59,293 nucleotides of DNA. Origin: Lachnospiraceae bacterium (lineage in GTDB: Bacteria > Bacillota > Clostridia > Lachnospirales > Lachnospiraceae). A model generated the notes under the pieces. It was not told the DNA's origin and ran no database searches. It saw nothing but the letters and a program-made list of their open reading frames with translations. The position numbers and the translations under genes are program-made. Where the stretch lies: positions 1 to 59,293 of the forward strand of contig JAEEIH010000115.1 in assembly GCA_016281275.1 (NCBI GenBank), written 5' to 3'. Position 1 is the first letter of the stretch. Each line of letters begins with the position of its first letter. Positions 435-15,740 of the stretch are shown here, piece after piece.

Positions 435-656
435 TCAAACACTGACATCCACATTTCCTCCTACGGCGGGATTGACTGATCTCTCCATCGAAGAACGCAT
501 CATGTCAATAAGAGCTTGTCCGCCCTGTTCGGTAATATCGATCGTTTTTGCCAGCACGGATTCCGCAACCTGATTCTGAACCTTAACCGTGCTCATCGCA
601 ACGGAAAGATCAGAGATCGCATACGGATCCATCGCACTGATATCGATTCCTGCCAT
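435..656 (-). CDS. YjfB-like putative motility protein (73 aa)
   Basis: This is a small soluble protein beginning MAGIDISAMD. Its length and its layout (a short amphipathic start, then alternating helices with the stretch VAMSTVKVQNQVAESVLAKT) resemble the YjfB family, which is found with motility genes in Firmicutes; the molecular role of that family is not known. The start is supported by an AGGAAG ribosome site about 10 bases upstream. A promoter and a terminator bracket the gene, so it is a single-gene unit. It lies immediately downstream of a probable small RNA with Shine-Dalgarno-like repeats. The family assignment comes from memory of the sequence pattern. Confidence 0.7.
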   Translation of the reverse strand: MAGIDISAMDPYAISDLSVAMSTVKVQNQVAESVLAKTIDITEQGGQALIDMMRSSMERSVNPAVGGNVDVSV

Positions 657-722: not shown

Positions 723-752
723 ATTATATCGGCTGTCGCATCAATAAAGCAA
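723..752 (-). promoter_or_regulatory. Promoter of the YjfB-like gene
   Basis: Minus-strand TTGCTT (747-752), an 18-base spacer and TATAAT (723-728) fit sigma-A. The overlapping GCCGATAT (726-733) equals the sigma-28/sigma-D -10 consensus, but no TAAA -35 lies 15-16 bases upstream. The -35 overlaps the T-rich tail of the preceding terminator. The transcript would start near a GCACGG/CCGTGC stem at about 697-719. Confidence 0.5.
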
Positions 753-784
753 ACGGGCATCGGTTCCTTCTTTCTCCGATGCCC
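747..784 (-). terminator. Terminator of the candidate small RNA
   Basis: GGGCATCGG (755-763) pairs with CCGATGCCC (776-784). The minus-strand stem is followed by a T-rich but interrupted tail (GTTTGCTTTATT). Confidence 0.65.
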
Positions 785-1014
785 TCAATCTATAACATTC
801 ATATAAGATTTATGTCTCCTTTGGACCGTACCTCCTTCTTTAATTATAGTTCCGGATTTTGATCAACTACGATCAGCTAAACATTTCCTTTGGACCGTAC
901 CTCCTTCATTAGTATAGTTCCGAGGATTGGTCGACTACGACCTGCTTATGTTTTTGTTGGACCGTACCTCCTGTAACAGATTTTTCTGTTTTCGTCTACC
1001 TTTTTGATTGGTAT
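750..1014 (-). ncRNA. Candidate structured small RNA with three Shine-Dalgarno-like repeats
   Basis: A perfect promoter at 1021-1049 and a terminator at 755-784 define a transcript of roughly 265 nt. No open reading frame of useful length follows any of its ribosome-site-like motifs; the only ATG frames give peptides of about 3-5 residues. The RNA contains three copies of GGAGGTACGGTCCAA spaced 67 and 69 bases apart. Between copies lie a hairpin with an invariant UAGU loop and a conserved GGAACTATA. One stem pair changes from G-C to A-U and another from G-C to G-U while pairing is kept. The function is unknown. Multiple GGA motifs would suit binding of CsrA, and the AAGGAGG motifs could bind the 16S rRNA 3' end; both are inference. 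Confidence 0.6.
821..972 (-). repeat. Three tandem repeats with AAGGAGGT core
   Basis: The plus-strand motif TTGGACCGTACCTCCT occurs at 821-836, 890-905 and 957-972, with periods of 69 and 67 bases. The two complete units also share the hairpin (arms 929-933/938-942 and 860-865/870-875) and the TATAGTTCC segment (913-921 and 845-853). Confidence 0.85.
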
Positions 1015-1020
1015 GACTGA

Positions 1021-1049
1021 ATTATAATCCCGTATATTCAAATTGTCAA
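1021..1049 (-). promoter_or_regulatory. Perfect sigma-A promoter of the candidate small RNA
   Basis: Minus-strand TTGACA (1044-1049), exactly 17 bases, then TATAAT (1021-1026). The AT-rich stretch 1050-1248 upstream of it holds nothing else that I recognise. Confidence 0.85.
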
Positions 1050-1248: not shown

Positions 1249-4185
1249 TCATTCAACCATGATATGCTGTATGAACACTTGCTCACCATAGACGATCCTG
1301 GACAACATGTCTTTTACGTTTTTTGTTTTTCCGTCACGGCTGTTAACGGTGATGTTAATCTCGTAATGATCTGTCTTTCCCGCAGCAATATCTTCCACTA
1401 TCTTATAAAGTCCTCCGTTTTCACCTTCGACGATATACGCTTTCTTCTTGCCGTTAAGCTCCTTTCTGAATTCATCGATATCGACAAAACCGAAGAGCCT
1501 GCAGGCCGCTTCATTACAATTGACAAGCAGGTACGCGTCGTCCTTGCTACTGTAATAGAACTGCATAACGGGACAGGGAATGTTTGAAAATGCCGCATCC
1601 ATAAGAAGGCCCTGCCTTTCATAACGTTTTTCCTGAATGGTCAGCCTGGTCTCCATCGCTACCCTCTTATCGATATCCTCTACGATCGCAGTTACATAAA
1701 TCCTTCCGCTGATGATGTGTGTAACGACAAATTCCGCCGAAGCCCACCTATAATCGCCGTCCGCGCACGTGTGTCTGAATCTGAGGCTTGCTTTCGTACG
1801 ACCTTTTTCTCTTACTTCTACCGCCATCTCCATGATCATAGCTCTGTCATCGGGATGGAACGTATCTACTACATGCGGCAGAACCTCGCGGGCATATTCC
1901 TCAGATGTGTATCCGTAAATCCCGGGTATATAATCATTATAGAAAAGTACATGCATTTCCTCTTCCACCAGTTCAAATTCCACTATTCCTGCGGGAACCT
2001 TATTCATTATATCGGATATCCTGTTTGTCAAACGGATATTGTTCTTAACAAGCAGCATTCTTTCGGTGATATTGTCAACCATAATATAAAGAAGGTGCTT
2101 ATCACCGCTTGTTTCGAGACATCTCACTCTGAAGCAGACATAAACCTCCTCGTTACCGTTTCTGAGATAAAGTACTTCGCAGCTCTTCTCTTCTCCCTCT
2201 CTCGCAGCATCCGAAAATGTCTCAAGTAGTTTTCTCCGGTCATCTTCACTCAGGCAATCAAGAATGCTGAAGCATCCTTCATTGAAATTATCACGGTCTG
2301 CCCCGATTGCATCGAAGAATTTCTCGTTGACTCGAAGCACCTCCACGTCTCTGCTTTCAAAGCCGATAATGGCAGCGCCGCCGACAAAGCTGTTGAATAT
2401 GAGCGTACTCTGAACGGAAGCATTCAGGAAATCTACCGTTCCGTCAGCAGCATATGAATCATAAATCCTGATCGGAAGCTCATGCTCACGACCGGTAAGT
2501 ATCTTCTCAAATTCGGAAATAGGCATCGGTCGTGCAAAATAATAGCCCTGCATGTATATACATCCGATGCTTTTGAGGTATTCGGCCTGTTCTTTTGTCT
2601 CAACACCTTCCGCAAGGACAGCAAGATTAAGCCTGTTCGACATTCTTATGACCGAACTCAAGATACTTCCGCCTCTCTCGGCATTTTTGCCGCCCTCGAT
2701 AAATTTCATGTCAAGCTTGAGCATGTCAACAGTAACATCCTTAAGTGTATTAAGCGATGAATAACCACTTCCGAAGTCATCCATTTCCACACTGAAGCCC
2801 GATTCACGAAGTCTGCTGACGGTCTCGATCATCTGCGAAGGATTGTCCATGTATGCCGACTCTGTGATCTCAATGCGTAAAAGATTAGTGGGCAGATCGT
2901 ATTTTCCGACAAGCTTAACAAAATGATCAACAAGCCTGAGGCTCGCGATGTCGGTTCTTGAAACATTGACAGAAACGGGAACGACCTCTCTTCCTTCGTC
3001 AAGCCACCTGCGCTGCAGCTTACATACCTCTTCCCAGACAAACTGATCGAGGTGGGTAATAAAGCCGTTCTTCTCAAAGATGGGCACAAACTTTCCGGGC
3101 ATGATGATACCCTTTGCCGGATGCTTCCATCTGACAAGAGCTTCCGCCCCGTGAAGCCTGTTGGTTGTGTAATTGAACTGAGGCTGTATAAAAATGATGA
3201 ACTGTCCCTCATCAAGAGCCGTGTTCATCTCATTGACTATCTGCTGGCTCTCTATAAGCTCCTGGCGCATATCCTCGCTGTAATACGCAACTCTGCTCTC
3301 GTATTTGCCCTTTATGCTCTTTAATGCAAGGAGCGCTCTGTCGCACATAAGGCTAATGTCGAGATCCCTGTTTTCAACAACATAAACGCCCATGCGCCTC
3401 GTCACATCAAAATCAAATTTCGAATCGTTTACGGGACTCGTAAGAGTATTTGCTACATTATGCCTGTTAAACACTTCCATTGGCATGCATCCGACATAAT
3501 GATCGGCTTCCCAACGCCCAAAGACTGCGTTGTCAGCCTCAAAACCCTTGAACATCCTCGCCATCTCCGAAAGGCACCGATCACCTTCCGATATGCCGTA
3601 AACATCGTTTATTACCTTAAATCCGTCTATATCGATCCTGAAGATAACGAACACATCCTTCGGATTATTGTCAATTATCTCTCGGGTTCTTTTGCAAAAT
3701 GAATTTCTGTTAAAAAGACCGGTTTTGGAATCATGCACCTGTTCGGAAAGGAATCTTCTGAACACAGGTACTCTGTTGTCATCACTCACAAGCTTTTGCG
3801 AGCTTCTTGAAATGATATTGCGTATTCTGTGCCTGATAAGCTGGATATTAAGAGGTTTGGTAAGTATGTCGGCGGCGCCGAGGTCAAAAGCACGCACCTG
3901 GTTCTCAATCTCATCCGCAGAAGTAACTACCACAACCGGAATCTCGCAAAGCTCCGAATCCTCAATCATGGCCTGAAGGACAGAAAAACCATCGATGATG
4001 GGCATGATAAGATCGAGAAGAACGATCGCCATATCCTTGTTTTTACGAAGGACATCAAGCGCTACCTCCCCGTTTTCAGCCATAAAGATTTCAAAATCAT
4101 CATCAAATGCTTCACTTAATAATATTCTGTTGGTAAATGCATCATCAACAATCAGCATTTTGAGTTTTTCTGCGCTTTTCTCCAT
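1249..4185 (-). CDS. Response regulator with degenerate GGDEF, EAL phosphodiesterase and C-terminal PAS domains
   Basis: Predicted cyclic-di-GMP phosphodiesterase (978 aa). A receiver domain comes first (about 8-125; LIVDD acidic pair, LLDLIMP phospho-aspartate, LTKP lysine). A GGDEF-fold domain follows (about 150-300) in which the signature is replaced by WEADH, so it should not make cyclic-di-GMP. The EAL domain (about 315-560) keeps every catalytic motif I can check: EAL, VNVSR, EITES, MDDFGSGYSSL, LKLD, AEGVE and QGYYF. Three PAS-like segments occupy about 600-978. Sensory domains after the EAL domain are an unusual order. The start follows an AGAGG site. There are no transmembrane segments, so it is cytosolic. 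No partner kinase is adjacent. Confidence 0.9.
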   Translation of the reverse strand: MEKSAEKLKMLIVDDAFTNRILLSEAFDDDFEIFMAENGEVALDVLRKNKDMAIVLLDLIMPIIDGFSVLQAMIEDSELCEIPVVVVTSADEIENQVRAFDLGAADILTKPLNIQLIRHRIRNIISRSSQKLVSDDNRVPVFRRFLSEQVHDSKTGLFNRNSFCKRTREIIDNNPKDVFVIFRIDIDGFKVINDVYGISEGDRCLSEMARMFKGFEADNAVFGRWEADHYVGCMPMEVFNRHNVANTLTSPVNDSKFDFDVTRRMGVYVVENRDLDISLMCDRALLALKSIKGKYESRVAYYSEDMRQELIESQQIVNEMNTALDEGQFIIFIQPQFNYTTNRLHGAEALVRWKHPAKGIIMPGKFVPIFEKNGFITHLDQFVWEEVCKLQRRWLDEGREVVPVSVNVSRTDIASLRLVDHFVKLVGKYDLPTNLLRIEITESAYMDNPSQMIETVSRLRESGFSVEMDDFGSGYSSLNTLKDVTVDMLKLDMKFIEGGKNAERGGSILSSVIRMSNRLNLAVLAEGVETKEQAEYLKSIGCIYMQGYYFARPMPISEFEKILTGREHELPIRIYDSYAADGTVDFLNASVQSTLIFNSFVGGAAIIGFESRDVEVLRVNEKFFDAIGADRDNFNEGCFSILDCLSEDDRRKLLETFSDAAREGEEKSCEVLYLRNGNEEVYVCFRVRCLETSGDKHLLYIMVDNITERMLLVKNNIRLTNRISDIMNKVPAGIVEFELVEEEMHVLFYNDYIPGIYGYTSEEYAREVLPHVVDTFHPDDRAMIMEMAVEVREKGRTKASLRFRHTCADGDYRWASAEFVVTHIISGRIYVTAIVEDIDKRVAMETRLTIQEKRYERQGLLMDAAFSNIPCPVMQFYYSSKDDAYLLVNCNEAACRLFGFVDIDEFRKELNGKKKAYIVEGENGGLYKIVEDIAAGKTDHYEINITVNSRDGKTKNVKDMLSRIVYGEQVFIQHIMVE

Positions 4186-15434: not shown

Positions 15435-15570
15435 TAATCATCGTGCCCTTCTTAAATTAAAGAAGGGCAACTTCCGAAGAAGTTGCCCAGACGGTCGGCA
15501 ATAAATATACCAAGAGGTATACGATGATTCCACGTGGTGAACTCCACTTATCCGTCAGGAATCATCAATA
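15435..15570 (-). promoter_or_regulatory. Structured leader upstream of pflB
   Basis: GGGCAACTT (15465-15473) pairs with AAGTTGCCC (15480-15488), and GCCCTTCTT (15445-15453) pairs with AAGAAGGGC (15460-15468). The two 9-bp stems share bases 15465-15468 and cannot form together. Further upstream are a TATACC/GGTATA stem (about 15506-15521) and a GATGATTCC/GGAATCATC pair (about 15523-15568). No clear promoter was found. Confidence 0.55.
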
Positions 15571-15740
15571 TGTTTCACAGCGTCCCTCGCATTCGCAATC
15601 CGCTCCGCTTCTTGCTCATGTTGCGGGACTGTGTTGCTGTTTCACAGCGGATCCCTCTCCGCTGTTTCACAGCGTCCCTCGCATTCGCAATCCGCTCCGC
15701 TTCTTGCTCATGCTGCGGGACTGTGTTGCTGTTTCACAGC
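15571..15740. repeat. Two 78-bp direct repeats
   Basis: Copies at 15571-15648 and 15663-15740 differ at one base (15621 versus the matching position in copy 2) and are separated by 14 bases. Each begins and ends with GTTTCACAGC. Each contains an internal GTCCC...GGGAC pairing. No gene lies here. Confidence 0.9.

Follow-up and report, generated by a model that had tools for sequence, protein, structure and literature searches.

Tandem Shine-Dalgarno-like units in a candidate RNA class of Lachnospiraceae: a possible decoy of translation start sites

A predicted RNA gene from a member of the Lachnospiraceae carries, behind a consensus promoter, tandem copies of a short motif that resembles a translation start site. 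The reading that we favor, with a probability of about 40%, is that the RNA is a multivalent decoy of such sites, holding 30S subunits without productive translation. In the proposed mechanism, a promoter-driven untranslated RNA bearing tandem GGAGGUACRGUCCA units would be transcribed, the units would bind 30S subunits by way of the 16S rRNA 3′ end, the bound subunits would not go on to elongation, and a regulatory effect would arise through titrating, or locally storing, ribosomes. A Shine-Dalgarno core, a start site at fixed distance that often holds no start codon, an immediate stop, multiple copies, a strong promoter, and a downstream gene that varies from locus to locus together suggest a decoy that engages 30S and yields no protein. 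The near-invariant spacer UACRGUCCA is the main fact that a decoy alone leaves unexplained.

The predicted RNA gene in the window

The RNA gene is located on the minus strand of the window, by which we mean the entire stretch of 59,293 nucleotides that was analyzed. Its promoter (1021..1049) matches the TTGACA-17-TATAAT consensus at 12 of 12 positions, with the −35 element at 1049-1044 and the −10 element at 1026-1021, and would place the start of transcription near 1014. Three units, each an exact GGAGGTACGGTCCAA, follow at 957..971, 890..904, and 821..835. Within them, exact copies of GGAGGTACGGTCC (971-959, 904-892, and 835-823) are spaced 67 and 69 nt apart, in agreement with the initial annotation, which had noted three copies at that distance. 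The codon at the start site is a non-start codon in all three units (ACA, AAG, and AAG). Unit 1 reads ACA AAA ACA TAA in this frame, with the TAA (946..948) at codon 3 after CCA; unit 2 reads AAG GAA ATG TTT AGC TGA, with the TGA (873..875) at codon 5; and unit 3 reads AAG GAG ACA TAA, with the TAA (810..812) at codon 3. A hairpin with a UAGU loop is situated 3′ of unit 1 (GGTCG-TAGT-CGACC, 929..942) and again 3′ of unit 2 (GATCG-TAGT-TGATC, 861..874).

A terminator-like hairpin, GGGCATCGG-12-CCGATGCCC followed by GTTTGCTTTATT, is read from the sequence at 755..784. It has a weak T tail and is not listed by the terminator rule used (loop 3-8); a terminator-like hairpin also follows the last unit in the five sister genomes inspected. 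From promoter to hairpin the RNA would be about 270 nt long. The earlier claim that a promoter and a terminator bound about 265 nt lacking a usable frame thus stands, with a perfect promoter at one end and a terminator-like hairpin with a weak T tail at the other. The RNA is predicted to fold with a stability that only 1 of 200 shuffled sequences equals (z −3.1). Outside the RNA, the downstream neighbor is a yjfB-type putative motility gene (435..656, minus strand; PF14070, E 9.6e-19) and the upstream neighbor encodes a response regulator-GGDEF-EAL-PAS protein (1249..4185, minus strand).

A conserved coding frame through the repeats, which had been named as evidence against an untranslated RNA, was looked for in relatives and not found. 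The sole minus-strand open reading frame of at least 25 amino acids that runs through a unit (1041-946) begins with a TTG that precedes the point where transcription is inferred to start, and its frame is interrupted and startless in the own-clade relatives compared. Across arrays, the frame upstream of the units is no more open than the other two (median 10 codons, as compared to 11 and 6) and often has no start; the unit is therefore not the end of a peptide. Unit spacings are, as a rule, not multiples of 3.

The UAGU hairpin had been described as covarying and as the signature of a selected RNA structure. Its presence after window units 1 and 2 and one two-sided change bear out part of this description; the covariation proved weak across six genomes. 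Of the 16 arrays of the genus, six, all from the own clade (unit spacing 67-82 nt), have a UAGU loop closed by at least four pairs. The remaining 10 (spacing 51-74 nt, mostly 54-59) have none; in these a simple scan detects other short stems, of 4-8 pairs. The first hairpin is present in all six clade genomes, and the second retains the UAGU loop with at least four pairs in three of them. Among the 12 hairpins of these genomes (8 distinct rows), three of the five pairs are invariant, 2 of the 8 distinct rows have a broken closing pair, and the sole compensatory change is a pair that is either A-U or G-C; as this switch separates two paralogous units, it may reflect a single event. The case for a selected structure is therefore weaker than was stated: the hairpin is real but local, and it cannot be the core of the class. 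A second hairpin candidate, internal to the motif (GGA with UCC), was rejected, as the 30 pairs with the highest mutual information over 165 units include none of its base pairs; the strongest such pairs are mostly positions a few nucleotides apart. Judged from these alignments, the selected feature is the repeat motif, not the hairpin.

A linear motif spread through one bacterial family

The exact 15-mer GGAGGTACGGTCCAA is found in at least 119 stretches of a collection of species genomes, and some of these matches, for example in Mycobacterium or Burkholderia records, are single copies that resemble chance. Arrays, defined as at least two units with at most 3 mismatches within 400 nt, are present in 66 of the 136 loci examined; the 68 arrays often have a spacing of 50-70 nt. 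Eubacterium ramulus ATCC 29099 (L061) and Anaerobutyricum hallii DSM 3353 (L045) are among the array carriers. Within the genus an array has 3-8 units. Among 28 loci drawn one per genus from 28 genera, 14 contain a single unit and no array, which counts against a multivalent decoy. The consensus of 165 de-duplicated units from 59 loci consists of an A-rich stretch followed by GGAGGUACRGUCCAAWGRAMANNUAA. The Shine-Dalgarno core GAGGU is conserved at 95-100%, A2, G3, G4, U5, A6, C11, and C12 at 98-100%, and the spacer positions A6, C7, G9, C11, and C12 at 88-100%, which nearly equals the core; because the units were gathered by their likeness to the 15-mer (at most 3 mismatches), these figures, and the duplex energies given below, are inflated. 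With the UAGU hairpin being local, sequence comparison points to a class that is defined by the linear motif GAGGUACRGUCCA.

Several other features were noticed in these and related loci. A mini-ORF of the MKLLEIH type, directly before a terminator-like hairpin, ends the arrays of loci L009, L107, L114, L119, L120, L121, L132, and L146, and four of these (L009, L119, L121, and L146) also contain MKGRDP-like mini-ORFs in mid-array. In L106, L130, and L081, a non-start unit (PKNT frame) lies 271-303 nt from an AUG unit (MDEIV) that immediately precedes a terminator-like hairpin. A different repeated element, GAGGTACAGTCCCATGC.GTATAGCC, is present in L235, L236, and L237, which represent three genera; no further unit lies within 500 nt of it.

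The distribution of the unit was assessed with R1, a sequence-only model of the 42-nt unit built from 71 sequences. A looser threshold of E ≤ 0.05 gave matches in 99 of 150 family genomes with about 7 expected by chance, and E ≤ 1e-3 was therefore adopted; a pattern of two adjacent units proved too strict (6 of 150) and was replaced by R1. The initial annotation had proposed a model search with the repeat unit across the Lachnospiraceae, and at E ≤ 1e-3 R1 matches 68 of the 150 genomes, a count from which units can be missing because scans of more than 40 genomes used stricter filters and scored few candidates per genome. In the genus, 16 of 24 genomes match, including all 7 that are at least 90% complete and at most 5% contaminated; of the 8 without a match, two are 99% and 94% complete and 6% and 8% contaminated. 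Among 249 genomes from across the phylum, the own genome was the sole match (0 of 248 others), again under the stricter filters, with which misses are possible. A phage origin was considered and rejected: the exact 15-mer has five matches in viral contigs, and none is an array. Taken together, the matches in the family, their lack elsewhere in the phylum sample, and the lack of arrays in viral contigs make this look like a family-specific chromosomal RNA class.

The promoter is a regular companion of the arrays. Within 250 nt upstream, at least 10 of 12 consensus positions are matched in 59 of the 61 arrays with usable upstream sequence, and at least 11 of 12 in 47. Composition shuffles reach 10 of 12 in ∼15%, 11 of 12 in 1.1%, and 12 of 12 never, and on the reverse strand 10 of 12 is reached in 12 of 61 and 11 of 12 in none. 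A promoter of at least 10 of 12 also precedes 24 of the 28 one-per-genus loci, of which 7 share sequence with the first array set; the other 21 were counted separately in the stop statistics below. The neighbors are less constant. Synteny with the response regulator-GGDEF-EAL-PAS gene and yjfB, the RNA lying in between, is seen in 6 of 16 genus loci, those of the own clade. At nine further loci the protein encoded nearest on the downstream side is DegV (two loci), a peptidase M14, a glycosyltransferase, an APH-type kinase, a Mur ligase/GTP cyclohydrolase, or a protein with no Pfam match (three loci). Since neighboring genes differ among loci, the RNA most likely acts in trans.

Candidate partners of the units

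Position 14 of the unit, at the normal distance from the Shine-Dalgarno core, is the start of ATG in 64 of the 165 units, of AAG in 48, and of ACA in 15. Counting ATG, GTG, and TTG, 73 units carry a start codon at this site and 92 do not. When one unit is taken from each of 67 arrays, all at loci that had been located by the motif itself, 89% have their first stop in this frame at codon 2-5; the other two frames give 28% and 23%. The same holds for 19 of 21 non-overlapping genera (4 and 7 in the other frames), a count that, like any on the 28-genus set, is slightly biased, since these loci were found by R1 and the training positions of R1 include the UAA. Start-bearing units have the early stop in 62 of 73 cases (18 and 9 in the other frames), and those lacking a codon-3 stop have it in 36 of 47 (16 and 7). 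Non-start units, the type to which all three window units belong, show a weak frame signal when they lack a codon-3 stop (19 of 27 versus 13 and 9), for which reason the UAA at position 23 of non-start units may be a plain nucleotide motif. By these codon statistics, the units look like translation start sites that have been made unproductive.

Use of the motif as an ordinary ribosome-binding site for genes was also considered and rejected. Among 97 sites in loci L030-L148 that combine the motif (at most 2 mismatches) with a start codon, one opens a 459-codon and one a 30-codon reading frame, and the rest open frames of at most 20 codons, 77 of the 97 being 2-5 codons long. Exact GAGGTACRGTCCNATG sites, found in 16 of 150 genomes, include five with open frames, of 197, 70, 70, 25, and 25 codons. 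Two near-identical 70-codon frames from one genome (L231 and L242), with GGAGGTACAGTCC or a similar ribosome-binding site, encode a GG-type leader that appears bacteriocin-like by eye.

The predominance of 2-5-codon frames also bears on a second explanation, in which the AUG units are tandem minigenes whose translation leads to peptidyl-tRNA drop-off or ribosome idling, as in toxic minigenes. Over all units, UAA is the commonest stop in this frame and Thr the commonest last codon, features that have been linked to minigene toxicity (PMC8708949). However, Thr-UAA is found mainly in non-start units; of 67 start-bearing units, 7 have Thr as the last codon and 32 stop at UAA, and more than half of all units (92 of 165), including the three in the window, lack a start codon at the site. 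We consider tandem minigenes an unlikely account of the class as a whole, and AUG-bearing units could act as minigenes in addition to serving as decoys.

Binding of the units to the 16S rRNA 3′ end had been suggested in the initial annotation, and a partner common to the whole family seems needed, a role for which 16S rRNA qualifies and CsrA and Hfq do not. The 3′ end, GGCTGGATCACCTCCTTTCT, was read from four of five other family genomes, as the 16S gene was not found in four genomes reached via the array loci. Predicted duplexes with this tail have a median of −18.3 kcal/mol over the units, and the three window units reach −18.4, −20.5, and −20.7 kcal/mol. By comparison, 63 open reading frames of at least 150 codons in the window have a median of −9.4 kcal/mol, none reaching the unit median, and three variants without the first G give only −9.8 to −14 kcal/mol. 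The pairing beyond GAGGU is less distinctive: the consensus tail gains no more there than do 5.8% of shuffled tails and 2.3% of random ones. The presumed 23S gene contains a site with a slightly stronger predicted duplex than the 16S 3′ end (−20.4 versus −19.7 kcal/mol), and the core is predicted to be unpaired at 0.40, compared to 0.43 in shuffled context, with higher values in 24 of 59 arrays. The 16S 3′ end is the best single candidate, and the part of the suggestion that fared less well is extended pairing, which is only weakly better than chance.

The spacer is where an RNA-binding protein becomes the main, close rival, since its conservation extends past the needs of Shine-Dalgarno pairing. 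The units would then be sites for a family-specific protein other than CsrA or Hfq, and the RNA a CsrB-like sponge with a different client. G9 is G in 94% of the units even though A would pair better with 16S, and a 14-nt motif, GAGGUACRGUCCAA, that is conserved well past the Shine-Dalgarno requirement, in multi-copy arrays with variable linkers, is what such a protein would lead one to expect; the UAA at position 23 of non-start units could likewise belong to the nucleotide motif. A protein site leaves unexplained, however, why 64 of 165 units have an AUG at precisely the Shine-Dalgarno distance, with in-frame stops; there is no candidate protein, and the motif precedes few longer reading frames, hence no obvious mRNA clients. 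We regard a protein sponge as a real possibility, if on balance a doubtful one.

The initial annotation had also raised a CsrA sponge, an analogue of CsrB/RsmZ linked to motility, for which the GGA motifs, the yjfB gene adjoining in 6 of 16 genus loci, and the csrA gene of the own genome speak. CsrA scores over the cut-off in 80 of 150 family genomes. Unit and csrA occur together in 33 genomes, the unit alone in 35, csrA alone in 47, and neither in 35 (Fisher p 0.33), and 20 of the unit-bearing genomes without CsrA are at least 97% complete. Among 28 loci, at least two units are present at 8 of 13 with CsrA and 6 of 15 without, a slight excess that is not significant (p 0.45), and the Pfam matches of the neighbors at other loci (nine downstream, four upstream) include no motility family. 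With the units equally frequent in the presence and absence of csrA, which has no match in 35 of 68 unit-bearing genomes, the CsrA sponge does not serve as a general explanation and is very improbable; CsrA binding as a local side use is possible in the own genome, which has the gene. Hfq (PF17209) matches 0 of 150 family genomes and 5 of 14 control genomes. On these genome counts, neither CsrA nor Hfq is the general partner.

The lack of an Hfq match also weighs against a regulatory RNA that acts by base pairing, in which the Shine-Dalgarno-like motif would pair with a pyrimidine-rich mRNA or another small RNA. The motif is linear and single-strand-like, repeated, and conserved, as such an RNA would require, and the own genome has a complement with one mismatch at a contig end, in a gene that appears flagellin-like by eye. 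Yet the own genome has two one-mismatch matches outside the array, which is about the number expected by chance (estimated near 3). We judge base pairing of this kind to be quite unlikely.

Relation to known systems and possible significance

One point of comparison is 6S RNA, a decoy that mimics an open promoter for RNA polymerase. If the decoy reading holds, both RNAs imitate the landing site of a central machine, with the difference that the present RNA would mimic ribosome start sites and not an open promoter. A dedicated ribosome-titrating RNA would be the first chromosomal RNA class to act on the ribosome as 6S RNA acts on RNA polymerase, through multiple start-site mimics (3-8 in the genus) in which the start is removed or a stop follows at once, kept across a dominant gut family in which no Hfq match was found (0 of 150 genomes); judged from sequence, this stronger statement is tentative and rather improbable.

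Type III toxin-antitoxin RNAs such as ToxI also consist of tandem short repeats under a promoter; here, in contrast, no toxin family turned up among the proteins encoded closest downstream at the 10 loci examined (in the window, yjfB). Lambda bar exemplifies the two-codon minigene with a strong Shine-Dalgarno sequence. The AUG units share with minigenes, as characterized in PMC8708949, the strong Shine-Dalgarno sequence, the 2-5 codons, and often the UAA; they differ in being tandem, on an RNA of their own, and in having startless companions. The same source describes a mini-ORF in the esp mRNA (LEE4), where a ribosome on a strong Shine-Dalgarno sequence protects the RNA, in cis on the downstream gene (PMC8708949). 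Ribosome binding without a useful peptide is common to that case and the present proposal. The esp mini-ORF acts in cis, whereas the units here are followed by a terminator-like hairpin and a variable downstream gene. CsrB/CsrC and RsmX/Y/Z are independent RNAs in which GGA motifs, repeated many times, imitate Shine-Dalgarno elements and titrate a partner (PMC9037510). The present RNA resembles them as a separate RNA with repeated Shine-Dalgarno-like GGA motifs; unlike them, it has a longer fixed motif (GAGGUACRGUCCA), is equally present in csrA-less genomes, and matches no Rfam model.

Ribosome titration, if true, would amount to a new level at which translation is controlled globally; if a protein is titrated instead, that protein would be a so far undescribed regulator, for whose isolation the RNA could serve as bait. 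Given its conservation and the near-consensus promoters at nearly all arrays, the RNA is likely to be abundant. The Lachnospiraceae rank with the most abundant bacteria of the gut, and because no Hfq match was found in the 150 sampled genomes of the family, RNA regulation there may differ from the textbook.

The initial annotation knew of no described RNA with this repeat, and the searches agree. The window RNA region has no match in Rfam 15 at gathering score, a sensitive scan of 650-1200 returned three matches far under their gathering scores (E 2.3 to 9.6), and no description of this RNA was found in the open-licence PMC literature. The class is thus undescribed in Rfam and open-licence papers; the sponge mode is known from CsrB, and the bound partner would be new. 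Rfam scans of 15 related array loci returned four tRNAs and one skipping-rope RNA, all outside the array, the latter (RF02924) at 2052-2121 of L015, shortly downstream of the array. Elsewhere on the minus strand of the window, a second perfect TTGACA-17-TATAAT promoter (305-333) precedes a tRNA gene (264-193), and a ZMP/ZTP riboswitch is found at 15478-15572 (50 bits).
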